From Pseudanabaena sp. lw0831 (GTDB taxonomy: Bacteria; Cyanobacteriota; Cyanobacteriia; Pseudanabaenales; Pseudanabaenaceae): a stretch of DNA of 49,107 nucleotides. The position numbers and the translations under genes were made by a program. Each line of letters starts with the position of its first letter. Position 1 is the first letter of the stretch. The notes under the pieces were generated by a model that made no database searches, was not told where the DNA came from, and saw only the letters and a program-made list of their open reading frames with translations. The stretch lies in NCBI RefSeq assembly GCF_016584665.1, contig NZ_BBJB01000063.1:1-49107 (forward strand), in the 5' to 3' direction. Shown here one piece after another: positions 6,374-19,575 of the stretch.

Positions 6374-6482
6374 GGTATTTTCTCCTAAAGGTTGCTATAA
6401 ACTACTTTGTCAAAGCAATGATTGACTTGATGTTTGAGATCAAGAAATTGAATGACTTCATTGCAAAACTTATGAGACTTTC

Positions 6483-6544
6483 GCAAAATGTATTTCATCG
6501 TAGGGGCAATTCATGAATTGCCCCTACGATGAAATGCGTTTTGC
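6483..6544. repeat. Palindrome with GGCAATTCATGAATTGCC core
   Basis: 62-bp nearly perfect palindrome with outer arms GCAAAATGTATTTCATCGTA and the common core. Its core matches 5830-5889, 14502-14547 and 16080-16119, but its outer arms are unique. It lies in the upstream region of the 5897-6373 gene. Confidence 0.87.
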
Positions 6545-6584
6545 AAGAAATTATTGCGTAAGTCCTAACTTATAAAAGTGATTA

Positions 6585-6911
6585 ACTGGTGTTACGTGGA
6601 AGTTTCTACAGCCCTCACCCCTAGCCCCTCTCCCGCAGGCTACCGTGTACACACAAGTCTAACCGTCTACGTTTCGATTTATCTAAGCCCCCTAAATCCC
6701 CCAATTCTGGGGGACTTTGAAAGAATTTTATTTTCTTGTTCCCCCAGAATTGGGGGCTAGGGGGCGATTAATTGTTGACATGACTGGGTTTTATGACTTG
6801 TGTGTACACGGTAGCTCCCGCAGGAGAGGGGAATAAGAAAAAATATTGGTTTTGCTCCCCTTCTCCTGCGAGAGAAGGGGTTGGGGGATGAGGGTTCCAC
6901 GTAACATCAGT
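6585..6911. repeat. Three-layer nested palindromic element
   Basis: Outer inverted repeat GTTACGTGGAA (6591-6601) with TTCCACGTAAC (6895-6905). Inside is a CCCCTCTCC/GGAGAGGGG hairpin family. At the hairpin loop sits a 175-bp insert (6640-6814) whose ends CTACCGTGTACACACAAGTC and its complement form an inverted repeat, and which contains its own GCCCCCT/AGGGGGC palindrome. The insert is flanked by the 10-bp direct repeat CTCCCGCAGG (6630-6639 and 6815-6824). This is the same composite as 19233-19515 in reverse orientation. Confidence 0.85.
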
Positions 6912-6913
6912 GA

Positions 6914-6950
6914 TGAAGAAAGATATACTCTGTGGGTACATCTTTCTTCA
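6914..6950 (-). terminator. Possible stem-loop at the 3' end of the NACHT gene
   Basis: TGAAGAAAGAT (6914-6924) pairs with ATCTTTCTTCA (6940-6950), directly after the NACHT stop codon. There is no U-tract, so termination is uncertain. Confidence 0.4.
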
Positions 6951-9275
6951 TTACGTCCATTCTCGGATTTCTAGTTCTTTTTGTGGCAACAATAAACTTG
7001 CTTCTATTTCTTTACGAATACTTGTTGTGACTTCGCAATTACTATTGAGGCAATCGAGCAGCAACTGATTAGCATCGTAATAGCTTTGTAATACTAGCTT
7101 CTGATTAGAATCAAAGTTCCATTGATTACTAATGTCGCGATGGGTCGCGATCGATGATTGAAGCTGTTTTACCCAAGTTGCATAGTTGTTTTTGCACCAT
7201 TTCTCAAAGCTGTTTTTACTGTGATCGTTATTGGGTAATTTATCGATAAGTTGTTGCAGCGATTTATGAAATCCTAAATCTACCACCATCCCTAAAATAT
7301 TGCTCAGGGCATCGCTACAGGAATGTATACTGGCAAAGTCTTTGCTCTTATTTAACGCGCATTCTTGTAATAAGTCATCTAACGCCGCATCTAATAATGC
7401 ACCTTTATCTAAGGTACAGGCTAGAGCGAAATCAGGCACAAGATGCGGTGTACGGGATAAAGCCAAATAAAAGGCGCGTTCTGTAGCAGGTTTAGATTCA
7501 GGTGGATTGCTTTCTGCTTTATTGTTTGCCCAAGTCAAAAACTCTTGCAGATAAGGATCTTCAGAGACAATGGCATCAATTCCTAGCTTCATTAACTCCA
7601 CTAATCCGTCGGCACTGCGGAGCATACTTGCGGTCAGCAAAAAGATTTCTCGCCAATAGGGATCGGTCATATGGGTTACAAGTCCCTGCAAAGAGTCTCC
7701 TAATGATTGGAGATTATGACTAGCGACGATCTTTCGCGCCGTGAAATACTCTTGTAACGCCAAATAGGAGAAAGAGAAGATACCGCGTGCCCGTTCGGCT
7801 AGAAGCCCATGTTGAGACTCGATCGCCCTAAGTATTGCCGCACTTGCCTGTTGAATCTCTTCAGGGTCGTTACTTGCGTCAGGGAGATTTTGCATATAGT
7901 CACTGATATGTTGCTCAATCACGCCTTCTTCAAAAAAGTACTGACCTTTCTCGAAGGTTGCCGAGGCAATCTGACTCAATAGCTTTAGCTTCTGCGGCAG
8001 CAAAAAACCTTGATATATTTGATCCCGTTCAATGCCTCTTGCTTCATCCCATTTTCCTAATAGCAGATCCATGCCTTGCTTATAAAATTCCGATTGCTTC
8101 AGGGGAAATTTATCTTGACGTTGGAATATGGAACAGGCTAAATGTAAAAATAGCGGCGTGGTAATCAGTCGTCGGAATCGCCAATTTTCTGGTAATTCCA
8201 AATTTTCCATAAACTCTGATGCACTCGTCAGCCCTTTTGATTCATTCGTTCTGCTAAATTCGATAAACCATTTCTGGGCAAAGGCAGCTATTTGGGTTTC
8301 GGTAAAGGGAGCAATCTCTACATCAGTGAATCCATTGATTGATAGCCTCTGAGCCGCCGTGCGACATGCCACAACAAACTGATTTCGATGAAATTTGTCG
8401 CAAAATCGACGAATTTCATTTAAAACAATATGTTCATCTTCATGGCAGACTTCATCTATACCATCAATTAGGAGCAAAACTCGACCACTATGCAGGAGCT
8501 TCTTAATGATCGCTGGTTGGGAAATGTCTGAGGTGAGAAACTCTTGATGGATATATTCTAATAAATCTGCTTGATGGCTATCTCGACAGCTTTCGGCAAA
8601 GTCTCTTAACACTATAAAGATAGGGACTTTGTCTGAACTAAACCGATCGCGGTTACATTGCACTGCTAAATGTTTGAGAAATGTAGACTTGCCAGCTCCA
8701 GGTCCACCTAAGACTCGCAGTTTACTAAATTTTTCTACTGCTTGCATACCAGAAATTTGGCTTTCTGTGATTTTACCTAATCCGAAGCGATCGATATCTT
8801 CGGGCTTGAGGCTTTTAATTTCAGAGACTTCTAACCATTGCTGACTGGAGATTTGCTCTAAAATATTCAGGTCAATATAGATATGATCGATGGAAACAGG
8901 ACGATTAATATCTAATAGTTGCAGGATGCCGCATTGATGGTCTATCTTTTCCATTCGTTGCGATCGCACTATTTGCACTAAAGCATCTATTCCTAGTGTT
9001 GCTATATCATCACTAGTCTCATCGCTGTCAGTGAGATGGTTGTAGTCTAATGGAGGATTGAGAGCAATATCTCGCCAATCCAAATCTAGTCTTGTACAAA
9101 GCTCAAAAAAAGTATAACGTTCAATTGCTTGTCCCGCAAAAAAACGCCAAATTGGTTGTCTTGTTTTAATTCCTACTTCGTTAGCTAGATACTCCTGTGT
9201 CCATCCTTTAGAGATAAATTGCTGTTTAGCTTTTTTGGCTCCAGATGGCGACGTTTGCAGTGATCGCTTAGCCAT
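6951..9275 (-). CDS. NACHT-domain NTPase (bacterial NLR-like, putative defence)
   Basis: 774-residue STAND-type NTPase. Residues about 20-75 (GWTQEYLANEVGIKTRQPIW) look like the small HTH-like N-terminal domain of many cyanobacterial NACHT proteins. Walker A is GGPGAGKST (190-198) and Walker B is LLLIDGIDE (268-275), in NACHT context; a winged-helix region (LKLLSQIA, ALQEYFTAR) follows. The C-terminal helical region (about 555-774), including ELMKLGIDAIVSEDPYLQEF, resembles the NACHT C-terminal helical domains of conflict systems. Related bacterial NACHT proteins block phages; whether this one does is inferred. It appears to stand alone. Confidence 0.9.
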   Translation of the reverse strand: MAKRSLQTSPSGAKKAKQQFISKGWTQEYLANEVGIKTRQPIWRFFAGQAIERYTFFELCTRLDLDWRDIALNPPLDYNHLTDSDETSDDIATLGIDALVQIVRSQRMEKIDHQCGILQLLDINRPVSIDHIYIDLNILEQISSQQWLEVSEIKSLKPEDIDRFGLGKITESQISGMQAVEKFSKLRVLGGPGAGKSTFLKHLAVQCNRDRFSSDKVPIFIVLRDFAESCRDSHQADLLEYIHQEFLTSDISQPAIIKKLLHSGRVLLLIDGIDEVCHEDEHIVLNEIRRFCDKFHRNQFVVACRTAAQRLSINGFTDVEIAPFTETQIAAFAQKWFIEFSRTNESKGLTSASEFMENLELPENWRFRRLITTPLFLHLACSIFQRQDKFPLKQSEFYKQGMDLLLGKWDEARGIERDQIYQGFLLPQKLKLLSQIASATFEKGQYFFEEGVIEQHISDYMQNLPDASNDPEEIQQASAAILRAIESQHGLLAERARGIFSFSYLALQEYFTARKIVASHNLQSLGDSLQGLVTHMTDPYWREIFLLTASMLRSADGLVELMKLGIDAIVSEDPYLQEFLTWANNKAESNPPESKPATERAFYLALSRTPHLVPDFALACTLDKGALLDAALDDLLQECALNKSKDFASIHSCSDALSNILGMVVDLGFHKSLQQLIDKLPNNDHSKNSFEKWCKNNYATWVKQLQSSIATHRDISNQWNFDSNQKLVLQSYYDANQLLLDCLNSNCEVTTSIRKEIEASLLLPQKELEIREWT

Positions 9276-9638
9276 AGGTCGATAAGCTCCAACACTTTTT
9301 AATGCTTACGTTCTACAAATTGCAATCAAAAAAACATATATACGATTGAGATGTATACATATAATTTAATCACATTCAAACAATACGTCTACAAAACACG
9401 AATTGGTATTTAGTTAACTATCTATTCATGTTTTGCATAGGTAGAAGCGATTTGCAAATTACACTTGTAATTGTTTGACCGTAAACATTTTCAATAAAAA
9501 GCGATCGTCAGTCCCCCCTTTTTTTTAGGACTTAAATCTTAAATAAATATAAACAGCATAGCGATCGCGCCCTTCTTAGCTCGCTTTAAAGAGATATTAG
9601 TGTTTTTTTTCTGCGATCTTTGGGCTTTTGAGGGCTTA

Positions 9639-9790
9639 GAACCCATTTAAGAATTGTAGTTTTTGCCCCCTAGCCCCCCAATTCTGGGGGGAACCATATT
9701 TAAGTCTCCCAGAATTGGGGGATTTAAGGGGGCTAGACACCTAGAACTTTAAACGAGATTTTAGGTGTTACGTAATCCTTAAATGGGTTC
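9639..9790. repeat. Composite palindrome: outer GAACCCATTTAA arms with inner hairpin
   Basis: The spacer 9276-9819 has no gene; it holds this repeat and presumably the NACHT promoter. Outer arms GAACCCATTTAA (9639-9650) pair with TTAAATGGGTTC (9779-9790). Inside is a GCCCCCTAG/CTAGGGGGC-type hairpin (9665-9732), the same family as the core of the 6.7 and 19.4 kb elements. The outer arms recur at 19076-19217 around a different inner hairpin. Confidence 0.8.
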
Positions 9791-9819
9791 TTAAAAAGAA
9801 TGTTCATAGCATAGCTATG

Positions 9820-9999
9820 CTATGTAAGTCCTATAGAATTTACGTGGCGAGTATGAACACTGTTAACACATACACTTGTACAAGATGTTGATGCTGCTAA
9901 TCCCAAAAAAGCATCCCAACGGACGCGATCGCTGAAATCTCCAACATCAATAACTTGTCGCTCTGTAGAAGTTTCCCAAGGTCGTTCAGAATTAATCAT
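9820..9999 (-). CDS. 59-residue peptide with Ser/Thr/Cys-rich C-terminus
   Basis: ORF from ATG at 9999 to a TAG at 9820-9822, behind a good CAGGAG ribosome site. The N-terminal part (MINSERPWETSTERQVIDVG) is polar and acidic. The C-terminal part has the segment LGLAASTSCTSVCVNSVHT, with two cysteines and many Ser/Thr. That leader-plus-core look recalls RiPP precursors, but no modification enzyme or transporter is adjacent. The last codons (IGLT) run into a sequence like the AGGACTTAC repeat, so the true C-terminus may have been altered. I do not recognise a family. Confidence 0.5.
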   Translation of the reverse strand: MINSERPWETSTERQVIDVGDFSDRVRWDAFLGLAASTSCTSVCVNSVHTRHVNSIGLT

Positions 10000-10016
10000 G
10001 ATCTTCGCTCCTGTAA

Positions 10017-10109
10017 TATAGCAATCCTAAATAAATCGTGAGAAGTAAAAGTCCATAACAAGGGGCTTAAGCCCCTTGTCTTTCTCACATCTCATTTAGG
10101 ATCGCTATA
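10017..10109. repeat. 93-bp nested palindrome
   Basis: Outer arms TATAGCAATCCTAAAT pair with ATTTAGGATCGCTATA. An inner GTGAGAA/TTCTCAC pair and an apical hairpin ACAAGGGGCTTAAGCCCCTT (10058-10079) follow. It lies between the hemerythrin gene and the 59-residue ORF and covers much of that ORF's upstream region. Confidence 0.85.
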
Positions 10110-10134
10110 TGGTTTGATGCAAGAACTAGAAAAT

Positions 10135-11172
10135 CTAGTGAGAAGCAGAAACGAGTCGATGATCTTGAATCTTGCTCTTGGCAGTCTTAAAATCAGTCGC
10201 CAGTTGCTTCTGTTGTTCGTCGCCAAAACTACCGTTAATGCGGGGGAACATTTCATCCTCTTCTTCTTTGATATGAGCATTGACATCCGATGCCAAAAGA
10301 TCTACCGCAGCTTTAAAAGCCACCGTATCTTCGCAGTTCATGGCTTTGATCTGTTCAAGCTTTTGCTTCATTTCTGCTTGTTCGTCATACAGATGCTGAA
10401 TGTCGTTGTAGTAAGGACGCACAACTGGATAGATAACTTCCTCCTCGGCGGAAGAGTGAGCGCTCAAGTCTTGGTAGACCTGCCCAAAATACTCCTCTAG
10501 CTTTTGAGGATCGTCAGTGGCTTTAATCTGAGAAAGCAGAGCAAAGACCTTAGTATGATCGAGTCGAATCAAATCACAAATAGCGATCTCATGATCGCTG
10601 CCATTGATGAGACTGCCTGTAAGACCACTTAGCGCGGCGATGGTGTCTTGCACCCTTGACCACAGTCCACTGTCAGAAGGCTTACCCGTTAGCTCCATCG
10701 TACTCAGAGATTCCATGATTCCTTTGAGTTGCTCCTCATGTCCACGATTTTCAAAGTTAACCGCATTGAGGGGAGCGATCGCTACAGCAATGTCTGCACC
10801 AACTACTTGACCAGCCTTATGAACTAGAACTCCTGCCATCGCTTGAGTGTGTTTGAGGAGTTCATGCTTTGACACTTTATCAAACAAAGTGAGATCTGAA
10901 TTTTCCATCATTCTCTCGACTTCTTCAATCTCTCTCTGGACACTAGGTTTAGCTTCAGCTTTAATTCCATACTGAACGATCACAGTATCGATGATACCCA
11001 AGTTTTTCTGGTCGTCTCTGAGAAATCCTTCTAAACGATTAGTGATTTCGCGATCGGGACAGGCGGCGATTAAGCTCTTTTCATTTGCAATCAGCAAGTT
11101 TTGAGTAGCTTTCATATCTGCCAATTTGACTGCGATGGCAGTACGTTTGGTATCTTCGAGTGTTACTGACAT
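10135..11172 (-). CDS. Hemerythrin HHE cation-binding domain protein
   Basis: 345-residue protein with a C-terminal hemerythrin-like four-helix bundle (about 195-330). Candidate di-iron ligands are in IRLDHTKV, HSSAEEEVIYPVVR, HLYDEQ and HIKEEEDEMFPR. The N-terminal half (about 1-190) is also helical, with HELLKHTQ and HEEQLKGIM, and resembles the DUF892/ferritin-like helical domains seen in stress proteins. It probably binds oxygen or protects against oxidants or iron; this is inferred. A strong AAGGAG site precedes the ATG. Neighbours are stress-type genes on the same strand. Confidence 0.85.
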   Translation of the reverse strand: MSVTLEDTKRTAIAVKLADMKATQNLLIANEKSLIAACPDREITNRLEGFLRDDQKNLGIIDTVIVQYGIKAEAKPSVQREIEEVERMMENSDLTLFDKVSKHELLKHTQAMAGVLVHKAGQVVGADIAVAIAPLNAVNFENRGHEEQLKGIMESLSTMELTGKPSDSGLWSRVQDTIAALSGLTGSLINGSDHEIAICDLIRLDHTKVFALLSQIKATDDPQKLEEYFGQVYQDLSAHSSAEEEVIYPVVRPYYNDIQHLYDEQAEMKQKLEQIKAMNCEDTVAFKAAVDLLASDVNAHIKEEEDEMFPRINGSFGDEQQKQLATDFKTAKSKIQDHRLVSASH

Positions 11173-11278
11173 TTAGATTGCTCCTTTGTGTAGTTAAAAG
11201 ATTCTTACTTCTCTTTTATAAAATCATGGCATCGGAATGTCTAACTACTTGAGTGACTTGATTAACTTGCACCATTAC

Positions 11279-11322
11279 GAAACAAAGTGTAATAGAACTT
11301 TCGTTCTATTACACTTTGTTTC
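11279..11322. repeat. Perfect palindrome upstream of hemerythrin gene
   Basis: GAAACAAAGTGTAATAGAAC pairs perfectly with its complement across a 4-bp centre. It lies about 110 bp upstream of the hemerythrin start, within the gene-free spacer 11173-11529. Confidence 0.85.
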
Positions 11323-11353
11323 TAGTAACTCATGTTACATAGAATCTGAGAAA

Positions 11354-11413
11354 GAGGGCTTGGATACCAAGCCCCTACCTCTAACACTGTTGGGGCTTGG
11401 TCTCCAAGCCCTC
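11354..11413. repeat. Palindrome with GAGGGCTTGG arms
   Basis: GAGGGCTTGG (11354-11363) pairs with CCAAGCCCTC (11404-11413), with a further internal GGCTTGG/CCAAGCC pairing that permits alternative folds. It belongs to the intergenic hairpin repeats of this genome. Confidence 0.75.
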
Positions 11414-11529
11414 TGCCAAGATGATATTGAAACATTAGGATTATCTGTGTTCTACATAACATCAGTTAGTAATGAAAATTCATGAATTGCCACTATTACA
11501 GCGCAAAGCGCTGTAAGTACATCAGCATA

Positions 11530-11585
11530 GTTAAAAAAATAAAAAAGAGCCTGTGCTGCCCGATACATCGGGCAGCACAGGCTCT
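11530..11585 (-). terminator. Intrinsic terminator of the glycine-zipper gene
   Basis: On the minus strand a 40-bp perfect hairpin (11546-11585, arms AGAGCCTGTGCTGCCCGAT) is followed by a T-rich run TTTTTTATTTTTTTAA. It lies 21 bp after the stop of the minus-strand gene at 11607. This is the most convincing intrinsic terminator in the window. Confidence 0.85.
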
Positions 11586-11606
11586 TAGGTCTAAATGCAT
11601 CGTGAT

Positions 11607-12119
11607 TTAGCGACGAATTGCGGTAGCAGCGCGATCCCATGCATCTTTTACTGCATGTTTAGCTTGTTCCCAAGGTAAATTTCCAGTCTGATTTGTTTGA
11701 TAATCGCGCTGCAAATCTGTTTCAACTTCGCTGTAAGTCCGACCACTATGACCATAGCGATCGTAGCCTTCATAGCCAGTGCGGTAGGCTGGTTGATAAT
11801 CTTCGTAGGTTCTATCTGAATCTGCATAGGAGCTAGAAGTATAAGTCTCCTGCCAATTGGTTTCTTCAAAAGTTGGATTAACTTGTTCGGCAACATCCTT
11901 ACCAGCCAAACCACCAACTACTGAGCCGATGACAGCACCAACTACAGCACCAACTGGTCCACCAACTGCGCCACCGATGACTGTGGCTACAGTACCAGCA
12001 CCTGCGGCTCCCACACCTGTTCCGAGGGGATGCGCTCCTACTTCTCCAGAAAGTGGATCGAGATTCGCATCGCCTTGGTCAGTGGAATTGACATCTCTGT
12101 TTACAGTTCTATTAGTCAT
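11607..12119 (-). CDS. Glycine-zipper domain protein, stress-type
   Basis: 170 residues. The central segment (about 34-75) is an uninterrupted Gly/Ala/Val zipper (GAVGGPVGAVVGAVIGSVVG), able to form membrane-inserting hairpins. The C-terminal half is rich in Tyr, Asp, Ser and Thr (TYEDYQPAYRTGYEGYDRYG) and ends in an amphipathic helix (WEQAKHAVKDAWDRAATAIR). Proteins of this layout are usually annotated as hypothetical and sit near stress genes. No signal peptide is seen. Function unknown. Confidence 0.8.
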   Translation of the reverse strand: MTNRTVNRDVNSTDQGDANLDPLSGEVGAHPLGTGVGAAGAGTVATVIGGAVGGPVGAVVGAVIGSVVGGLAGKDVAEQVNPTFEETNWQETYTSSSYADSDRTYEDYQPAYRTGYEGYDRYGHSGRTYSEVETDLQRDYQTNQTGNLPWEQAKHAVKDAWDRAATAIRR

Positions 12120-12219
12120 TTTTACTTGTCCTATAAATAATTTGTTTGCAAGTTGTCCAAAATCTTGAAATTGGAAGCCTTTCTGTAATTCTTACAACGC
12201 TTTGCACTGAATCCAGAAC

Positions 12220-12270
12220 CAATATTTTTGTTAAAAGTACTGCTTTGCAGTACTTTTAACAAAAATATTG
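12220..12270. repeat. Palindromic intergenic repeat
   Basis: Perfect hairpin with arms CAATATTTTTGTTAAAAGTA and loop CTGCTTTGCAG. It is preceded by ACAACGCTTTGCACTGAATC, which resembles the leader of the 2315-2373 hairpin. It lies between the glycine-zipper and GlsB genes. Confidence 0.85.
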
Positions 12271-12283
12271 CTGTAAATAGCTT

Positions 12284-12529
12284 CTAAGCAGATCTAACTA
12301 GGCGAATCCCATATAGTAAAACCACCGCACCAATGGTTGCCACGATCAAGCTGCCAAGCAAGCCACCGCCTGTAGAGACACCAAATGTATTAAATAGGAA
12401 GCCGCCCAACAATGCGCCGATAATCCCGACAATAATATCGCCGACTACACCAAAGCCACCACCTCGAACTATTTGACCAGCTAAAGCTCCAGCCACTAGC
12501 CCGATCAAAATAAACCAAATAAATTCCAT
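12284..12529 (-). CDS. GlsB/YeaQ/YmgE family stress membrane protein
   Basis: 81-residue integral membrane protein of the transglycosylase-associated (GlsB/YeaQ/YmgE) family. It has three hydrophobic segments with the family's Gly-rich motifs: GLVAGALAGQIVRGGGFG, then DIIVGIIGALLGGFLF, then LLGSLIVATIGAVVLLYGIR. Family members are induced by general or envelope stress; the molecular role is not established. It lies between the glycine-zipper and LEA-like genes, separated by hairpin repeats, so the three genes are probably transcribed separately. Confidence 0.92.
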   Translation of the reverse strand: MEFIWFILIGLVAGALAGQIVRGGGFGVVGDIIVGIIGALLGGFLFNTFGVSTGGGLLGSLIVATIGAVVLLYGIRLVRSA

Positions 12530-12621
12530 GAGATTCTCTCCGTTTATCTATTTCAAGTATTTGTGAATGAGAGGATAGGCGGCGAAGATCTTCACCTATC
12601 CTTAGTTACCGAATTTCTACC

Positions 12622-12715
12622 AATTCACAAAAGTGTCGTTACACTTTTGTGAATTAAAAACCAAACCCAGTAAGGGTTTTAAAAGAACAAAATGGCGTAG
12701 CCATTTTGTTCTTTT
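12622..12715. repeat. Two consecutive palindromes
   Basis: Hairpin 1 spans 12622-12655, with arms AATTCACAAAAGTGT. Hairpin 2 spans 12681-12715, with arms AAAAGAACAAAATGGC and loop GTA. Both lie just downstream of the LEA-like gene (stop at 12719), and one may end its transcript. Confidence 0.82.
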
Positions 12716-12718
12716 GTG

Positions 12719-13177
12719 TTACTGACCTAAGAAGTTTTTGACAGAGTCAATTGCTTCTTCAACCTTGTTTCCAGCTTTATCAGATAGGTCTTTGGTATTT
12801 GCCTTAACTTCATTAGCGCGATCGCCTGCCATTGCCTTGGTTCTCTCAACACCATCACCAACTTTGTTCTTGGCATCTTTAGCCATATCCTTAGCTTTGC
12901 CCATATTTTCCTTGGTGCCTTCTTTCACGTTTTTGGCTAAGTCCTTAGCGCGATTTCCAGCTTCTTTCGCAAAGTCCTTAGAAGTATCGGCAATCGTCGG
13001 ATTACCAATGCTCGCCAAGGGAGATGCGATCGCCCCAGAACTAAAGAATGTCACTTGCAACATCAATACTAGCGCGAACCCAAAAGCGAAAAGGAGTCCT
13101 TTCTTGACACCATTTAGTACGGCAGTAACTGGATTATTAAAGTTACTAGCGTTGCCACTGTCTAAAATATTAGTCAT
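12719..13177 (-). CDS. Membrane-anchored LEA-like protein
   Basis: 152 residues. A hydrophobic segment (about 22-48, GLLFAFGFALVLMLQVTFF) is followed by a Lys/Asp/Ala-rich region made of 11-residue-like amphipathic repeats (AKDLAKNVKEGTKENMGKAK, AKDAKNKVGDG), typical of late-embryogenesis-abundant proteins. Such helices stabilise proteins or membranes in drying or osmotic stress; this is inferred. The frame has a GTG three codons upstream; the ATG at 13177 is preferred because AGGTG precedes it at good spacing. The opposite-strand ORF here is a compositional shadow. Confidence 0.8.
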   Translation of the reverse strand: MTNILDSGNASNFNNPVTAVLNGVKKGLLFAFGFALVLMLQVTFFSSGAIASPLASIGNPTIADTSKDFAKEAGNRAKDLAKNVKEGTKENMGKAKDMAKDAKNKVGDGVERTKAMAGDRANEVKANTKDLSDKAGNKVEEAIDSVKNFLGQ

Positions 13178-13362
13178 TTGTTTCACCTGTAAGTTTTGTC
13201 TGTAACTCGGTAGTCAATTCCTAAGCTAACAGGCATTTGTTTGATCTCATGCTTGAAGAGTGTATAAGTTGCATGATTTGTACTAAAACAAAATAAATCT
13301 TTACGATGCAAATATCTAATTTTTTTTAAGCTTAGCAAAAACAAAAAAAGCATCTCATCCTT

Positions 13363-13400
13363 AATGATTATAGGCAATTCATCAATTGCCTATAATCATT
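13363..13400. repeat. Palindrome with GGCAATTCATCAATTGCC core
   Basis: 38-bp palindrome with arms AATGATTATAGGCAATT. It belongs to the same core family as 5830-5889, 6483-6544 and 14502-14547. Confidence 0.85.
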
Positions 13401-13913
13401 TAATTGTTTCACCATAATTTAGACCTATATCAAAAACTATTGCCATCTATATATTGAACAGTATAGGTTTTAGGGTTTTATATTTAATCTAGCTTACTTA
13501 CCTAGTATAGAAAAACTCTCTTAGCTAATGATTTGAAATTACTACATGGATCAAAAGGAACAGAACTGTATTAGTTGTAACAATTTAAGTACTAATAAAC
13601 CATCTTATACAATTTGTTCATTTTTTAATGTCTGATTATACATGATTTATGACATGCAGGTGTGAGACTAGATTCACATAGGTAAATTACTAATATTAAC
13701 TCTATCTATTAATAGATTTGATGTTACTAGGAAGTCTTAATTGTTTGTGGAATGCGTTTAGTGCAACGTAACGCATCAACTATACCTCAATGATGGGTTG
13801 CGCTATCGCTAACCCATCCTACATTTAATTCCAACAACTTACATAACTTTAGTAAAGCCTATGTTTTCTTAAGTAAAACTAAGCCACTAATTGATTTAAC
13901 GGAGTAGAAAATT
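13401..13913. other. Gene-free AT-rich spacer between two divergent stress clusters
   Basis: No ORF with coding character was found. It contains a GATGGGTT/AACCCATC hairpin (13792-13818) of a type common in cyanobacterial spacers and is otherwise AT-rich. It separates minus-strand stress genes from plus-strand ones, so promoters in both directions are expected; no specific operator could be identified. Confidence 0.6.
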
Positions 13914-14501
13914 ATGATCGGACAATACAAGCGCGCTACGGGTACATTTTCTAATCATCAAAAAGCTGAATCGGCTCTTGGTGAATTGAGAGACAGTGGA
14001 TTTAATATGGATCAAATTTCGATCATTGGGAATAATGTCGATCGCAATTCTGATATTACTGCTGAGAAGCAAGTCCAGCATCTCAACGATCTTGACAACA
14101 AAGTGGGTGAAGGTGCTGCAACAGGTGCTGCATCAGGTGTTGCCGTTGGAGGATTAACGGGGCTACTAGTTGGGCTAGGACTTGTAGCTATTCCTGGAGT
14201 TGGGCCAGTGATGTTGGCTGGCGCTGTGGCTACGACTCTGGCTACTGCGCTAACGGGTGGTGCGATCGGCGCAGCCGCAGGTGGACTCATCGGCGGATTG
14301 GTTGGCTTAGGCATTCCTAAAGACCGTGCCAAGATATATAGCGATCGCGTAGATCAAGGAGATTGCTTGGTGATGGTTGATGGTTCGGAGCAAGAGATTC
14401 ATCAAGCCGAAGCAATTTTGCAACGTCACGGTATCCATGAATGGGGTATTTATGATTCTGCTGATGTTTCTAGTAGAACAGGTGCAGTCTCTTTGAGATA
14501 G
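13914..14501 (+). CDS. General-stress-protein-like with glycine-zipper membrane segment
   Basis: 195 residues. The N-terminus (QYKRATGTFSNHQKAESALG, then DSGFNMDQISIIGNN) matches the GSP17M-like fold seen in the two genes at 5.3-6.4 kb. It continues into a long Gly/Ala-rich hydrophobic zipper (about 63-135, GVAVGGLTGLLVGLGLVAIP, GGAIGAAAGGLIGGLVGLG). The C-terminus (IYSDRVDQGDCLVMVDGSEQ) completes the domain. The split domain around a glycine zipper is a known cyanobacterial arrangement. GGAG precedes the ATG. Role in stress is inferred. Confidence 0.85.
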   Translation: MIGQYKRATGTFSNHQKAESALGELRDSGFNMDQISIIGNNVDRNSDITAEKQVQHLNDLDNKVGEGAATGAASGVAVGGLTGLLVGLGLVAIPGVGPVMLAGAVATTLATALTGGAIGAAAGGLIGGLVGLGIPKDRAKIYSDRVDQGDCLVMVDGSEQEIHQAEAILQRHGIHEWGIYDSADVSSRTGAVSLR

Positions 14502-14547
14502 ATGAATTCAGTAAGGGCAATTCATGAATTGCCCTTACTGAATTCAT
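14502..14547. repeat. Palindrome with GGGCAATTCATGAATTGCCC core
   Basis: 46-bp perfect palindrome directly after the stop of the preceding gene, with outer arms ATGAATTCAGTAAG. Possible terminator. Confidence 0.87.
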
Positions 14548-14598
14548 AAATTTTTATCAAAGATAAGTAGCTAAGCCTAAGCAACCCTTAAACGGAGA

Positions 14599-14633
14599 AG
14601 CCTGTGCCGCCCGCTGCGCGGGCGTTACAGGCT
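14599..14633. repeat. GC-rich hairpin
   Basis: AGCCTGTGCCGCCCG pairs imperfectly with CGGGCGTTACAGGCT. It resembles the terminator hairpin at 11546-11585 (CCTGTGCTGCCCG). It lies upstream of the BON lipoprotein gene. Confidence 0.75.
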
Positions 14634-14687
14634 CTGACTTTAGATTTTTATTATGATTAAGTACTAATAAATTGAGGAATTTCTTCC

Positions 14688-15140
14688 ATGAATACAAAAA
14701 TTGCTTCTTTACTACTAACTAATTTTCTCTTAGTTACAGTAGTAGCTTGCTCTGATGCACGAACTACCTCTGAAGCTCCTGCTCCTAGTAGCACTATCAG
14801 CCCTACTGCCGCACCACAAAACACTCAAGCAGCTATGAGTGATGCTCAAAGTGAAACTCGCAAAAAACAATTGGATGCTGATATTCGCGCTCGCGAACAA
14901 CGCAATGATGCAATGGGTGACACGACCAAACGACCAGATAGCGATCTTGCTAGCGAAGTTCGGAGTAAGCTAGAGGCAAATATCCCTAAAGGTAATTTGA
15001 CTGTAGAGTCTAAGGATGCAAATGTTGTCGTATCAGGAACCGTTCCTTCACTAAATGACCTTGATAAAGTCAAAAGTTTGGCAATGGAGATCAAGGGAGT
15101 TAAGACTGTCACGATTAAGGCTGTGGTTGCATCTAAGTAA
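14688..15140 (+). CDS. BON-domain lipoprotein
   Basis: 150 residues. A lipoprotein signal peptide ends in the lipobox VVAC with the modified Cys at residue 21. A Pro/Ser/Thr-rich linker and a charged segment (about 50-85) follow. One BON domain lies at about 87-148 (DLASEVRSKLEANIPKGNLT, VVVSGTVPSLNDLDKVKSLA, VKTVTIKAVV). BON domains bind phospholipid and occur in OsmY-type osmotic-stress proteins. The protein is likely anchored in the outer or inner membrane facing the periplasm. The family call is secure; the stress role is inferred from neighbours. Confidence 0.9.
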   Translation: MNTKIASLLLTNFLLVTVVACSDARTTSEAPAPSSTISPTAAPQNTQAAMSDAQSETRKKQLDADIRAREQRNDAMGDTTKRPDSDLASEVRSKLEANIPKGNLTVESKDANVVVSGTVPSLNDLDKVKSLAMEIKGVKTVTIKAVVASK

Positions 15141-15162
15141 TTCACCTTACGCAGAAGTTTCT

Positions 15163-15430
15163 AAGCCCCTCACCCCTAGCCACTCTCCCAAGGCAAGCTA
15201 ACGTTACATACAAGTCTCAAAACCCCCTTTAATTCCCCCTTGCAAAGGGGGAAAACTAGAAATTTAGTTCCCTCCCCTTTGCAAGGGGAGGGCTAGGGAG
15301 GGGTAATTAATGAGATTTGAAAATTTCTTTAGTTGCGAGTACACGGCAGATCCCAAGGAGAGAGGGGAGCAAGAAAACTTGAATAAATTGCTGTTGCTCC
15401 CCTTCTCCCGCTCTGAGAGAAGAGGATGAA
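15163..15430. repeat. Nested palindromic element with loop insertion
   Basis: Host hairpin of the CCCCTCACCCCTAGCC family interrupted by a 157-bp insert (15194-15350) that is flanked by the 8-bp direct repeat TCCCAAGG (15186-15193 and 15351-15358). Insert ends (ACATACAAGTC and GAGTACACGGC) resemble those of the 6.6 and 19.3 kb inserts, but the innermost hairpin differs (CCCCCTTTAATTCCCCCTTG). No gene is seen in the spacer 15141-15563. Confidence 0.8.
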
Positions 15431-15470
15431 GGCAAATCTTCGCTAATCTGCTATTACATTTTATTTCAGA

Positions 15471-15520
15471 ATCAATCAACTCATTCAACAAATCAAACAT
15501 CGGTTTGCAATAGTGTTTGC
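15471..15520 (+). repeat. Dispersed upstream repeat, copy a
   Basis: ATCAATCAACTCATTCA, then AAATCAAACATCGGTTTGCA and ATAGTG. It lies 44 bp before the secreted LEA-like gene. Together with CTGCTATTACATTTTAT just upstream it closely matches copy c (21.4 kb). Confidence 0.75.
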
Positions 15521-15563
15521 AGGAACCAAGTTCCAATTATCAATTAAATCATGAGGAAATTCT

Positions 15564-16046
15564 ATGAAAATTGTACAATTTTTAAAGCGCTTTGTGGTCA
15601 TGGTCGTTGTCTGTGGATTAATCGCATTTGCTAGTGTCAATCCTGCGATCGCAGCTCAAAATGCTCCAGATCAAATCACTGACAATCTGACTATGCCTAA
15701 CATCCAGAAGAAAGCTGAAGATGCGGTAAAGGGTAGTACATACGATACTAATCCAGAATACACGTCTGACGATTCATCGAATCAAGGTTTAAATGAAATT
15801 CAAGGAACCTCTGATTTTGACAAAATGAAGCGAAGCTCAAATGAAGATACCCCACCTGTAGTGAAGCAAGCAGAAAAGGCTTTTAACAAAGCTGGAAACA
15901 ACATTAACTCTGCAAAAGACAGCACCTTAGATAAGGCTGGTGATGCAGCGAGCTATATCAAAGACAAGACAGGAGACGCTCTCAAATCATTGACTGGGAA
16001 AGCTTCTGACACTGCTAAAGCGATCAAAAACAAAGTTAAATCCTAA
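15564..16046 (+). CDS. Secreted LEA-like protein
   Basis: 160 residues with a signal peptide (about 1-31; VVMVVVCGLIAFASVNPAIA, cleavage probably after AIA). The mature protein is hydrophilic. An acidic middle (about 40-95) is followed by Lys/Ala/Asp-rich amphipathic repeats at the end (KDSTLDKAGDAASYIKDKTG, then GKASDTAKAIKNKVKS). This resembles LEA-type protective proteins and parallels the LEA-like gene at 12719-13177 on the other arm of the island. GAGGAAATT precedes the ATG. Periplasmic protection is inferred. Confidence 0.78.
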   Translation: MKIVQFLKRFVVMVVVCGLIAFASVNPAIAAQNAPDQITDNLTMPNIQKKAEDAVKGSTYDTNPEYTSDDSSNQGLNEIQGTSDFDKMKRSSNEDTPPVVKQAEKAFNKAGNNINSAKDSTLDKAGDAASYIKDKTGDALKSLTGKASDTAKAIKNKVKS

Positions 16047-16079
16047 TCTTGTTTAGGGTTTAAGTATCAAATACCTGCG

Positions 16080-16119
16080 TTAGAGATAGGGGCAATTCAT
16101 GATTTGCCCCTATCTCTAA
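16080..16119. repeat. Palindrome with GGGCAATTCATGATTTGCCC core
   Basis: 40-bp palindrome (arms TTAGAGATAGGGGCAA) 33 bp after the preceding stop. Possible terminator; member of the common core family. Confidence 0.85.
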
Positions 16120-16160
16120 AACGCTGTAGATAGAAGAAAAATCATAGTCTGGAGAAATAT

Positions 16161-16646
16161 ATGAGTAGTCTAATTGCTGTTGGATTTAAAGATGAGTTCA
16201 CGGCTGACGAGGTTATACTAGAACTACGAAAGCTGCAAAAAGAGCATCTGATTGATTTAGAAGATGCAGCGATCGTGATCAGAAATAAAGATGGAAAAGT
16301 AAAGATTAAACAGACTCAAGAACTAACTGCTGCGGGAGCATTAAGTGGAGGATTTTGGGGACTGCTATTTGGCTTCATCTTTTTTAATCCTCTCTTGGGT
16401 TGGGCTGTAGGTGCGATCGCAGGTGGGATTTCTGGTGCATTGACAGACATTGGGATTGATGACAACTTTATCCGAGAAGTAGGCAGTACTATTGAGCCTA
16501 GTACTTCAGCAATTTTTGTGTTAGTCAGGAGAGCTACTCCTGACAAAGTACTGGAAGATCTCAGCAGATTTGAAGGCAAAGTTCTGAGGACTTCTCTATC
16601 AAATGAAGATGAGGCAAAGCTAAAAGCCGTTCTCACAAAATCATAA
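16161..16646 (+). CDS. DUF1269 family membrane-associated protein
   Basis: 161-residue DUF1269 protein. It has the family layout: an N-terminal strand-helix (SSLIAVGFKDEFTADEVILE), the segment DAAIVIRNKDGKVKIKQT, a central hydrophobic Gly-rich pair (about 56-92, SGGFWGLLFGFIFFNPLLGW, AVGAIAGGISGALTDIGID), then FIREVGSTIEPSTSAIFVLV. Domains of this group occur in stress-linked clusters; function is unknown. GGAG precedes the ATG. It is part of the plus-strand stress series. Confidence 0.9.
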   Translation: MSSLIAVGFKDEFTADEVILELRKLQKEHLIDLEDAAIVIRNKDGKVKIKQTQELTAAGALSGGFWGLLFGFIFFNPLLGWAVGAIAGGISGALTDIGIDDNFIREVGSTIEPSTSAIFVLVRRATPDKVLEDLSRFEGKVLRTSLSNEDEAKLKAVLTKS

Positions 16647-16656
16647 CTCCTAGAAT

Positions 16657-16677
16657 GGTCGGCGTAAAGCGCCGACC
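16657..16677. repeat. Short GC-rich hairpin
   Basis: GGTCGGCG pairs with CGCCGACC across a 5-bp loop, 10 bp after the DUF1269 stop. Possible terminator, though no T-run follows. Confidence 0.6.
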
Positions 16678-16725
16678 GTATACAGCCTAATACTATTTAG
16701 AATTTAAATAATTCAAGAAGGTTAT

Positions 16726-17190
16726 ATGTTTCTAAAATCATTTGAACTAAAGCTCTTAGTTGTTTTTGGATTGCTTCTAAGTTTATCTTTTGTATCCTCC
16801 GCTCAAGCAGACGAATGTTATCCTCTTAATGTAATCGGAGACACTGGCACGACTGTAAAAAAAACTGTTTCTCCTTTTAGCACATTGGTAACCAGTAATA
16901 ATTGGAATACAGATTTCTCTGTACCTAGCGATCGCTCTTTTAATAGTTATGAGGCAACTATTGTTCCTGAAAACAATGCTAACTATGATGTAGAGCTAAG
17001 CTTAAAGTATCGCGATCGCAGTTCTAGTCGGGCTTATAAAAAAGATAATGTAGCAGTTAAGGTTGGTCAACCGCTAAGACTAATGGGTGTACCACAATCG
17101 TCTAGCAATCCTTTTCAAGTCAATGTATTTGTGGGTGGACTCAATGCGATCGGCAATACCTACAGTGTTTCCGTTGAAGGATGTATTTAA
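16726..17190 (+). CDS. Secreted protein of unknown function
   Basis: 154 residues with a clear signal peptide (FGLLLSLSFVSSAQA; cleavage near residue 28). The mature part looks beta-rich (TTVKKTVSPFSTLVTSNNWN, ANYDVELSLKYRDRSS). It has just two cysteines, C31 and C153, at opposite ends, suggesting a disulfide that closes the fold. I do not recognise a family. AAGG precedes the ATG. Its place in the plus-strand series suggests an envelope or periplasmic stress role, but that is only context. Confidence 0.75.
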   Translation: MFLKSFELKLLVVFGLLLSLSFVSSAQADECYPLNVIGDTGTTVKKTVSPFSTLVTSNNWNTDFSVPSDRSFNSYEATIVPENNANYDVELSLKYRDRSSSRAYKKDNVAVKVGQPLRLMGVPQSSSNPFQVNVFVGGLNAIGNTYSVSVEGCI

Positions 17191-17202
17191 GACTGCGATC
17201 AG

Positions 17203-17255
17203 ACGCAAACCCGTAGAGTTGCGCCCCTTCGGGGCGCAACTCTACGGGTTTGCGT
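17203..17255. repeat. Strong palindrome with ACGCAAACCCGTAGAG arms
   Basis: 53-bp perfect palindrome with a TTGCGCCCC/GGGGCGCAA upper stem. The same family as 21298-21350: the shared part is CAAACCCGTA and GTTGCGCCCC, and the varying bases are matched on both arms. Both copies are followed by a TAATTTA-TTTTG-AAGTACTTA motif, which is also found at 19541-19569. Confidence 0.87.
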
Positions 17256-17322
17256 AATTTATTTTGTGAAAGTACTTACAAGCATAGATGGAAGTAGATT
17301 TTGTAACACTTTATTGCATAGT

Positions 17323-17380
17323 AAATCAATTCAATCAATTCAATCAAGAAACCAAACATTCTTCAGCAATAGTATATAAA
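17323..17380 (+). repeat. Dispersed upstream repeat, copy b
   Basis: AATCAATTCAATCAATTCAA followed by TCAAGAAACCAAACATT and GCAATAGTATATAAACAG. It shares the AATCAATTCAATCAA tract and the GCAATAG-TATAAAC tail with copies a and f. It lies 53 bp before the small membrane protein gene. Confidence 0.7.
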
Positions 17381-17432
17381 CAGAGAAATTTTAAATTTTT
17401 CTGTTTGTATACTATTACTTAAGAGAGAATAT

Positions 17433-17624
17433 ATGCCTAGACTTGTAGGAAAGAAAAACAACTCTGCTTTATATACTGGTTTAGCAATGCTTATTGCTGC
17501 TGCTGGAGTTGTAGCATTAGAATACTTTGGAGTAATTGATTTCGCTCCTAATTTTGGGAAAGATGCTGAAGTAAAGAGTGATTCTACTAACCAACCCATA
17601 AAGACCTCTAGACCGATTAATTAA
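17433..17624 (+). CDS. Small single-helix membrane protein
   Basis: 63 residues with one hydrophobic segment (about 13-35, ALYTGLAMLIAAAGVVALEY), a basic N-terminus and a polar C-terminus. It is probably inserted with the N-terminus in the cytoplasm. A purine-rich GAGAG precedes the ATG. The PRC-barrel gene begins 33 bp after its stop, with its own AGGAG site, so the two are likely co-transcribed. I do not recognise a family. Confidence 0.65.
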   Translation: MPRLVGKKNNSALYTGLAMLIAAAGVVALEYFGVIDFAPNFGKDAEVKSDSTNQPIKTSRPIN

Positions 17625-17656
17625 GGTTGACTTTCATCAAGTTTTAGGAGAATGAA

Positions 17657-19063
17657 ATGCGCAATGGTAAAGGAATGATTGGCAAACCTATAGTCGCCTA
17701 TGACTCTGGGGAAGAATTTAAGACAATTGTGGACTTGGTTTTTGATCAAGAGAGTAATCAATTATTAGGGTTTCTTGTTGATGAGAGTGGTTGGTTTAGT
17801 GATGCGTTGGTATTACCTTTAACTAATGTTCAGGCGATCGGAGCTGATGCTGTAATTGTTGCATCCAGAGATGCGATAGATTCTGCCAGTGAATTCCCGC
17901 AGATTCAAAACATTTTAGAAAGAGATAATACCTTGAAAGGCACGAGAATCATGACTCTTGATGGGCGTGATTTGGGGACAATGGTTGACCTTTACTTTGA
18001 CGATACTAGTGGAGCGATCGAAGGATATGAAGTGTCTGGTGGCATCTTCGCTGATGCCTACTCTGGACGCTCCTTTGTTCCTGCTCCTGACACCCTCAAG
18101 ATTGGCGAAGATATAGCCTTTGTGCCTTCTGAAACTGCTGACTTGATGCAAGAGCAAGTAGGCGGAATTAGAGGCGCTATGCAAACTGCAAGCGGAAAAG
18201 TGCAGGAAATGGCGCAACTTACAGGAGAAAAGGCTCAAGAAGCTGTTCAATTTACAGGAGAGAAGTTTCAAGAAGCGACGACATTTGCAGGTACTAGCTT
18301 TACTAATGCTGTTGTTGATCCTGAAGAACAAGAAATTTTTGTATTAGGAAAAGTTGCTCAAAAAACTGTAGAAACTACTGATGGCATAACTTTAATTCAT
18401 GAAGGACAGATTGTGACTTCATCACATATCTTGGCTGCTCGGAACCTTAATATGACCAACGATCTCTATCATTCAGCAGGAGGAAATGCCACTGCTAAGT
18501 TAGGAGAAAAACTGACTGGTGTAGTGACAGGTATGAGCGCAAATATTGGTCTTGAGCAGGCGCAGGGTCGGCGTGTAAACAAGATGATTTTCACAACTGA
18601 AGGCTCGGTTGTTGCTGTAGAAGGTCAAATTGTAACTCCGAGAGTAATTGAAAGAGCCAAGACTCATCATCAAGAACAAGCGCTATTAGAGGCAGTTGGG
18701 TTAACCACTGGTGATGCTTTGCGAGTTACAGGATCTAATGTTGGACAACAGGTTAAGGACGGAGCTAAGGGATTATGGGAGCAGGTGAAAGAAACTGCCA
18801 GCAATCTCCAAGATCATGGTACTCAAGCATATGAGGATAAAAGAATTAAAGGTGCTTTGGGTCGTCCTGTAACTCGTGTGATTCTCGATCGCAATGATGA
18901 GGTGATTCTCAATGTTGGGGAATTAATTACACATCAAGCGATCGCCATTTCTCGTGATGCTGATGTCTTAGAAGTTCTATTGGACTCAGTTTATACTCAG
19001 ACACCAAAGCTTTCTCTAGATGAATTACGCGCTCCTGAATCTGGTAAAGCAGCTTTAAATTAA
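17657..19063 (+). CDS. PRC-barrel domain protein with C-terminal repeats
   Basis: 468 residues. PRC-barrel domains lie at about 5-75 (MIGKPIVAYDSGEEFKTIVD) and 95-165 (TRIMTLDGRDLGTMVDLYFD). A Gln/Glu/Ala amphipathic stretch (about 175-230) has the near repeats TGEKAQEAVQFTGEKFQEA. The C-terminal half has three repeats of one motif: KVAQKTVE with HEGQIVTSSHI, RRVNKMIF with VEGQIVTPRVI, and RPVTRVIL with NVGELITHQAI. PRC barrels mediate protein assembly in photosynthetic complexes and RNA processing. The function here is unknown. AGGAG precedes the ATG. Confidence 0.85.
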   Translation: MRNGKGMIGKPIVAYDSGEEFKTIVDLVFDQESNQLLGFLVDESGWFSDALVLPLTNVQAIGADAVIVASRDAIDSASEFPQIQNILERDNTLKGTRIMTLDGRDLGTMVDLYFDDTSGAIEGYEVSGGIFADAYSGRSFVPAPDTLKIGEDIAFVPSETADLMQEQVGGIRGAMQTASGKVQEMAQLTGEKAQEAVQFTGEKFQEATTFAGTSFTNAVVDPEEQEIFVLGKVAQKTVETTDGITLIHEGQIVTSSHILAARNLNMTNDLYHSAGGNATAKLGEKLTGVVTGMSANIGLEQAQGRRVNKMIFTTEGSVVAVEGQIVTPRVIERAKTHHQEQALLEAVGLTTGDALRVTGSNVGQQVKDGAKGLWEQVKETASNLQDHGTQAYEDKRIKGALGRPVTRVILDRNDEVILNVGELITHQAIAISRDADVLEVLLDSVYTQTPKLSLDELRAPESGKAALN

Positions 19064-19075
19064 ATTAATTACCTT

Positions 19076-19217
19076 AGAAACCATTTAAGAATTACTTTCT
19101 GTGCTCAAAAGCCCTAAGAGATCCCCCTCAATCCCCCTTAAAAAGGGGGAAGAATTTAAATTCTCCCCCCTTTTTAAGGGGGGCTGGGGGGATCTAGACA
19201 ATTCTTAAATGAGTTCT
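19076..19217. repeat. Composite palindrome: GAACCCATTTAA-type arms with inner hairpin
   Basis: Outer arms AGAAACCATTTAAGAATT (19076-19093) and AATTCTTAAATGAGTTCT (19200-19217) match those at 9639-9790. The inner hairpin (19119-19195) is of a different type, AGATCCCCCTCAATCCCCCT. The same host palindrome thus carries different cargo in two places. Confidence 0.8.
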
Positions 19218-19232
19218 TACATCGAGCGAAAA

Positions 19233-19515
19233 TCTGCCCTCATCCCCCAACCCTTTCTCCCGCAAGAGAAGGGGAAGAAACCCCAATCATTTTCTTATTC
19301 CCCTCTCCTGCGGGCTACGGTGTACACACAAGTCATAAACCTAGCTAAGTCAACAATTAATCGCCCCCTAGCCCCCAATTCTGGGGGAACAAGAAAAGAA
19401 CTGTCTTTCAAAGTCCCCCAGAATTGGGGGATTTAGGGGGCTTAGATAAATCGAAACGAAGACAAATTGACTTGTGTGTGCACGGTAGCTCCTGCGGGAG
19501 AGGAGCTAAGGGTAA
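19233..19515. repeat. Three-layer nested palindromic element
   Basis: Reverse-oriented near copy of the 6585-6911 composite. The host hairpin arms CCCTCTCC and GGAGAGG are interrupted by a 174-bp insert (19315-19488) with ends CTACGGTGTACACACAAGTC and GACTTGTGTGTGCACGGTAG. The insert is flanked by the 10-bp direct repeat CTCCTGCGGG (19305-19314 and 19489-19498). No gene lies in 19064-19575. Confidence 0.85.
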
Positions 19516-19575
19516 GGGATCTGTAACCTTACAACCTTGAGTAATTTATTTTGTACAAGTACTTATTTAAAACTT

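Follow-up and report, generated by a model that had tools for sequence, protein, structure and literature searches.

Background

Insertion sequences (ISs) that enter palindromes at their symmetry axis have already been described, including one element of the IS4 family. ISPsy8 and ISRm22 insert at the axis of repetitive extragenic palindromes (REPs), and the REP-targeting ISs also include ISPpu9, IS1397 and IS621 (PMC1525189). The definition of the IS4 family, the spacing of its motifs and the features of its IS50 subgroup follow PMC2266710, Table 1 of which also gives duplications of 10–12 bp for IS231. In cyanobacteria, Nezha is a miniature inverted-repeat transposable element (MITE) with ISNpu3-like elements as its proposed mover (PMC3049150). 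IS4 elements of the IS10 and ISPepr1 types occur in the genome of Anabaena sp. 90 alongside MITEs whose ends are not IS-like, and the parts of its description drawn on here mention no hairpin targeting for these elements (PMC3542288). The present study concerns three inserts of 157–175 bp, each within a palindromic repeat, in a 49,107-bp window of Pseudanabaena sp. lw0831 (bases 1–49107 of contig C63 of its 5.26-Mb, 118-contig draft genome).

The inserts belong to a family of MITEs that, with a probability of about 85%, are moved in trans by a Tn5-like transposase into dyads of a C-tract and a G-tract, many copies carrying such dyads themselves. The family resembles ISRm22, an IS4-family element of Sinorhizobium meliloti, in its insertion at palindrome axes, its IS4 relationship and the occurrence of copies without matching duplications, and differs from it in duplication length, which is 6 bp in ISRm22 and 8–12 bp here (PMC1525189). 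Unlike the REP-targeting ISs, each of which uses one kind of REP (PMC1525189), it hits many different palindromes with C-tract/G-tract arms; it is also dominated by MITEs, unlike ISRm22 and the other REP-targeting ISs. Transposase similarity, the subgroup end consensus and the usual element length are shared with IS50/Tn5 (PMC2266710), whereas the duplications are longer than in the IS50 subgroup (mode 10 versus 8–9 bp) and the preference for C on the left and G on the right of the target is strong. Like Nezha as described in PMC3049150, the family is a cyanobacterial MITE with a presumed IS partner. The end sequence CTACCGTGTACACACAAGTC, queried as four 13-letter pieces, was not found in the literature searched, and as far as that search extends the C-left/G-right rule over many palindromes, the present MITE family and the carriage of the target as cargo are new. 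Tn5 itself has a weak target preference, IS231 targets GGGN5CCC, and IS186, which is placed in IS4, targets GGGGN6-8CCCC. The present family is like IS231 and IS186 in having a dyad-symmetric GC-tract target and unlike them in its polarity, which is reversed, with the C-tract on the left and the G-tract on the right.

The Three Inserts in the Window

The inserts, their duplications and their hosts are as follows (window coordinates).

6589–6908, no strand: host palindromic repeat split by an insert; two C-tract/G-tract hairpins in inverted order; outer ends GTGTTACGTGG...CCACGTAACATC
6630–6639, plus: target duplication, left copy, CTCCCGCAGG
6640–6814, plus: MITE copy 1, 175 bp; perfect 20-bp inverted-repeat ends; CCCCC..GGGGG hairpins in the interior
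6815–6824, plus: target duplication, right copy, CTCCCGCAGG
15186–15193, plus: target duplication, left copy, TCCCAAGG
15194–15350, plus: MITE copy 2, 157 bp; degenerate ends; different interior palindrome (L024/L028 type)
15351–15358, plus: target duplication, right copy, TCCCAAGG
19237–19510, minus: host palindromic repeat split by an insert, reversed relative to the 6.6 kb host; outer limits approximate
19305–19314, plus: target duplication, left copy, CTCCTGCGGG
19315–19488, minus: MITE copy 3, 174 bp; reverse complement of copy 1, 90.9% identity
19489–19498, plus: target duplication, right copy, CTCCTGCGGG

Each insert lies between open reading frames (ORFs), in the middle of a hairpin of the CCCCTCTCC..GGAGAGGGG type, which it interrupts. 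The positions, sizes (175, 157 and 174 bp) and direct repeats recorded in the first-pass annotation were all confirmed, as were the inverted-repeat ends it had noted: the 20-bp ends are CTACCGTGTACACACAAGTC and its complement, matching each other at 20/20 positions in the 6.6 kb insert, and each end of the 19.3 kb insert differs from the 6.6 kb end by one mismatch. The ends of the 15 kb insert are decayed and escape detection at up to five substitutions; this copy was recognised by eye and by its interior, which shares 87% identity with copy L024 across 115 bp and 91% with L028 across 99 bp. The innermost palindrome was likewise correctly described as common to the 6.6 and 19.3 kb inserts, which are 90.9% identical over 175 bp as reverse complements, and as different at 15 kb, where the match to the 6.6 kb insert is restricted to 29 bp near one end. 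The window had no match in Rfam.

Copy Number, Distribution and Target Duplications

The end motif occurred 37 times in the lw0831 genome (19 forward and 18 reverse, with up to two mismatches in 15 bases) versus seven times when searched backwards as a control. With 20 bases and two mismatches, it was found in lw0831 and in 28 of the 57 relatives, and its reversal had no hit in any of the 58 genomes; a scan of genome contigs with the exact 19-base end returned at least 112 stretches, all cyanobacterial among the 80 matches listed. In the window and 20 further lw0831 stretches, 15 copies had both ends (up to five mismatches), and 12 of these were flanked by a direct repeat of 9–11 bp, one with a mismatch (none at L013, L015 and L026). 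The 15 kb insert is a 16th copy of this genome, and four more are cut by contig ends (L010, L019, L020 and L023).

The sample for the family comprised the window, 20 lw0831 stretches, 112 genome-contig stretches and 39 same-genus stretches. Ends were paired when up to 450 bp apart with up to five mismatches, and copies were counted once if their 16-bp flanks were identical, which also unites independent hits on identical sites (L012 with the 6.6 kb copy); flanks shorter than 24 bp were excluded. This gave 123 distinct MITE-size copies, some nested or false pairs among them, of which 70 had a direct repeat of 8–12 bp (49 exact and 21 with one mismatch) and 53 had none. Repeat lengths were 8 bp in three copies, 9 in 15, 10 in 33, 11 in 17 and 12 in two, with a mode of 10. 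When flanks were swapped between copies, 167 of 4830 pairs (3.5%) seemed to have a repeat, versus 12 of the 15 lw0831 copies; the window duplications are not due to chance. Recombination between copies, as proposed for ISRm22 (PMC1525189), could by analogy explain the copies that have no duplication. The family thus consists of short, non-coding elements with target duplications and with ends common to an autonomous IS, that partner being present in relatives, which supports the initial description of a small non-autonomous element with inverted-repeat ends and duplications of about 10 bp.

Target Sites

With the flanks rejoined, a hairpin was centred within 1 bp on the repeat in 46 of 70 MITE sites (9/11 in lw0831, 12/18 in the same genus and 25/41 in genome contigs); the corresponding figures were 2.2% for 20,000 random positions and 3.2% for 5000 intergenic ones. 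A search for the best dyad centre up to 3 bp from the centre of the duplication placed it no more than 1 bp away at 58 of 70 sites. Full-length copies with a duplication, described below, were in hairpins in 11 of 15 cases, e.g., CCTTAGCAAGG and CCTTATAAAGG in G381. At and beside the repeat edges, C/T predominated on the left side and A/G on the right side, and both target arms were present at 62/70 sites with a duplication and 41/53 without, compared with 1.7% of random pairs. Strong-hairpin targets (stem score of at least 8) numbered 38, 29 of them from MITEs and nine from full-length copies. They represented 34 distinct 19-bp centres and 11 outer-arm 5-mers, and not one REP family entered at a fixed position, as would be expected of a REP-targeting IS.

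The Full-Length Element and Its Transposase

The transposase gene with the same ends, which the first-pass annotation had suggested looking for, was found in the same genus: locus L110 of Pseudanabaena sp. UWO311 contains an element of 1487 bp that is bounded on each side by the same 20 bases and carries an ORF of 443 amino acids. This locus is identical over 3000 bp to one in the same-genus genome G008; in another, G017, a piece 96% identical lies beside an end and is cut by the contig end. The ORF matched the NCBIfam model NF033590 for IS4 transposases (E 5.9e-112), and the solved proteins that it matched were Tn5 transposase alone (six distinct sequences, E about 5e-28). Its catalytic residues are in place (D58, D162, E304 and Y297-R300-E304-K311). 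The three acidic residues are separated by 103 and 141 positions, in agreement with the IS4 family signature D(60-110)D(100-150)E, and the motif Y(2)R(3)E(6)K corresponds to YCWRWRIEQLFATLK. By eye, the likeness of the MITEs to the L110 element is confined to the ends.

Of the 34 full-length loci collected, 26 had both ends, 15 of them with a repeat and 11 without; five had no usable end pair and three were duplicates; the UWO311 element is among the five, its left flank being too short for the script. As in other IS4 elements, the transposase is encoded by a single ORF (480 amino acids in L247, called mechanically from a TTG start), and duplications of about one helical turn, 9–12 bp, flank 15 of the 26 two-ended copies. 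The end CTACCGTGTACACACAAGTC fits every fixed position of the IS50-subgroup consensus CW------Y---CA-A--W- (PMC2266710, Table 1). Element length was judged to agree with the 1350–1550 bp of that subgroup, 21 of 26 copies being 1484–1488 bp long, with others of 1479 and 1508 bp and three longer ones of 1572–1611 bp. The repeats lie outside the subgroup's 8–9 bp, with a mode of 10 in the MITEs and 10–12 bp in 13 of 15 full-length copies, and the family is therefore called IS50-like and not placed in the subgroup. Matches to the related L247 protein (E up to 1e-150) occurred at 29 places in 17 of 217 genomes of one other cyanobacterial family; 16 were near-complete without a stop, five had internal stops and eight were partial. 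In addition, the same-genus genome G024 contains two remnants of the full-length element (L203 and L204), each with one end and the first 34 residues, which have long shared flanks and stand beside a half hairpin.

Sequence, Structure and the Origin of the Sites

Insertion centred on the hairpin axis would also be expected if the transposase recognised an extruded hairpin or cruciform regardless of its sequence, which was the view taken at first pass, where the element was said to target hairpin loops. This statement has to be amended, as structure alone is insufficient: 24 of 70 sites were not hairpins at a stem score of 6 and the strong-hairpin targets had one polarity. All 38 were pyrimidine-left (C-rich) and purine-right (G-rich), compared with 71 of 500 background intergenic hairpins; the 429 others include window hairpins with 23 matched pairs, and the perfect hairpins at 2113, 17229 and 21324 are of the kind that is not used. 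Among hairpins with GC-rich arms, this polarity was found in 16/16 targets versus 27/86 in the background. The background was taken from the window, the 20 lw0831 stretches and the 112 genome-contig stretches, with those under 300 bp skipped and the surroundings of elements excluded (a parallel count gave 497 hairpins); the targets came also from further loci (L202–L240 and the full-length loci). These results are given as counts without a probability because the sites are not fully independent, with 34 distinct centres among 38. In the top class of consensus score, hairpins made up 85% of 46 used and 76% of 82 unused intergenic sites; palindromy therefore adds little once the sequence is matched. 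This consensus-matched background alone did not separate sequence from structure, whereas the hairpin-polarity test did. A contribution of structure is favoured by the match between opposite arms, which exceeded that of swapped arms: the observed pairing was reached in 0/1000 swaps of 70 sites, in 1/1000 with one site per arm type (46 sites) and in 0/2000 for the arms alone (85 sites). The arms of L262, paired around a non-palindromic 11-bp centre, and the site of L248, a palindrome of the other base type, point the same way. Taken together, recognition of structure regardless of sequence is unlikely. The target most plausibly is a duplex sequence, dyad-symmetric and made up of a C-tract and a G-tract, with a smaller chance that extrusion matters; a preference for sequence can thus pass for a preference for hairpins. 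That the pattern reflects random insertion, with persistence solely in dispensable intergenic repeats, is most improbable: the three window copies do lie between ORFs and hairpin repeats of the C-tract/G-tract kind are largely intergenic, but selection on gene function would not yield insertions within 1 bp of the dyad centre at 58 of 70 sites, or at hairpin centres in 46 of 70 versus 3.2% of intergenic positions.

A host hairpin and its insert might also have spread as one composite after few insertion events, and descent of the 6.6 and 19.3 kb composites from a single event had indeed been suggested in the first-pass annotation. The two are 88% alike over 280 bp, and at 6.6 kb both host and insert are missing in two same-genus genomes, G008 being collinear with the window to 6585 and resuming at 6936, and G017 to 6475, resuming at 6909. 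Read in a common host orientation, however, the duplications are CTCCCGCAGG at 6.6 kb and CCCGCAGGAG at 19.3 kb, 2 bp out of register, which leaves single-event descent unsupported. Locus L012 carries an insert at the 6.6 kb host position, and L014 carries one at the same position in reverse. From the shifted register and the reversed L014, the same centre has therefore been hit more than once, and with 34 distinct centres among the 38 strong hairpins, composite spread can be given little credence as the general explanation. Uninterrupted CCCCTCTCC..GGAGAGGGG hairpins were found at 22 places in lw0831 (one in the backwards control), five of them with the exact 6.6 kb host centre on either strand (C24, C57, C86 and two on C115). 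In G017, a 59-bp stretch replaces window 19068–19556 at the 19.3 kb locus, where G008 had no match left of 19557, and at 15 kb both have different repeat arrangements; no orthologous empty hairpin was found at the three loci in these two genomes. The expected empty sites thus exist as intact paralogous hairpins of the same genome and were not recovered as orthologues in relatives, so the empty sites known are paralogous only. Empty hairpins are nevertheless present and the insertions do not lie at random positions, the two points on which the initial proposal had been made to depend. Joint absence of host and insert at 6.6 kb in two relatives means that the host repeat itself was gained or lost, and the inverted outer ends GTGTTACGTGG..CCACGTAACATC of 6589–6908 suggest that it may be a second mobile element. 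The identity of the host repeats is not settled by the parts of PMC10969869 and PMC3733652 drawn on here.

Several observations weigh against movement of the MITEs by a Tn5-like transposase into C-tract/G-tract dyads. The transposase was not found in the 118-contig draft genome of lw0831 with protein query P0001, and a comparison of that genome with NF033590 gave a sole match of 30 positions, below the cut-off. The start of the UWO311 ORF lies about 38 residues downstream of that of Tn5 (query residue 15 corresponding to chain residue 53), and this copy has no target duplication; because of both features, it may be broken or inactive. Duplications are absent from 53 of 123 MITE copies and 11 of 26 two-ended full-length copies. 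At 10 of 70 sites, some of which may be false pairs, the score for the target consensus is low, with stem scores of 1–4.5, and the palindrome of the wrong base type at L248 received a full-length insertion with duplication GGCTGAAGCC. The better pairing of a site's own arms, expected of any real palindrome, leaves some room for a contribution of structure.

Three further features of the window were observed. A further inverted repeat at 6476–6568 (GTAGGGGCAATTCATGAATTGCCCCTAC core) has matches in many members of the genus and is present at the locus in G008 and missing in G017. At 19118–19205, some 100 bp away from the insert at 19.3 kb, lies an intact hairpin repeat that represents a second host type (AGATCCCCC..CCCCCTTAAAAAGGGGG). 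The 774-amino-acid ORF at 6951–9275 (minus strand) has a P-loop (GGPGAGKST) and an LLIDGIDE motif and appears NACHT/STAND-like by eye.

Proposed Mechanism and Nesting

A Tn5-like, IS4-family DDE transposase would recognise the 20-bp ends CTACCGTGTACACACAAGTC, which are identical on the full-length relative, and would move the MITEs in trans by cut and paste. Acting presumably as a dimer and reading duplex DNA, it would nick the two strands with an offset of about 10 bp, around the axis of a dyad-symmetric sequence of approximately YCCCY-C-N7-9-G-RGGGR, as the base preference and the duplications indicate. The best dyads in these genomes are mostly the centres of C-tract/G-tract hairpin repeats, hence the apparent hits on loops. 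The interior hairpins, one or two in many copies, would then offer new landing sites in which copies could nest.

At least one interior C-tract/G-tract hairpin was found in 87 of 120 elements longer than 100 bp (12 of 14 in lw0831). Among control segments, such hairpins occurred in 10/517 random ones, representing any DNA, and in 17/430 intergenic ones of 135 bp. Nesting in an interior hairpin was seen in two loci. In L294, an inner copy lies inside the interior hairpin of the outer copy (L147 is the same place as judged by its flanks, with the duplication CCTTAAAAAG), and in L213 a copy is likewise nested within another copy's interior hairpin, with no clean duplication. L292 (361–825, G049) has a single left end and then a series of five right ends, 70 bp apart, an array that could result from serial nesting or from tandem duplication of half elements. 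From these observations, a self-feeding element may tentatively be proposed, somewhat short of an even chance: a Tn5-type MITE with its own landing site as cargo, in which each insertion uses one dyad and often brings one or two, so that the family would grow by self-nesting in intergenic DNA.

Significance

The family points to naturally sequence-guided Tn5-like transposases with many usable insertion sites, in contrast to Tn5 itself, and some of the nested palindromic repeats between cyanobacterial genes can be attributed to the MITEs. If it is true that the cargo is also the landing site, this would represent a simple route by which a genomic parasite may expand without hitting genes.

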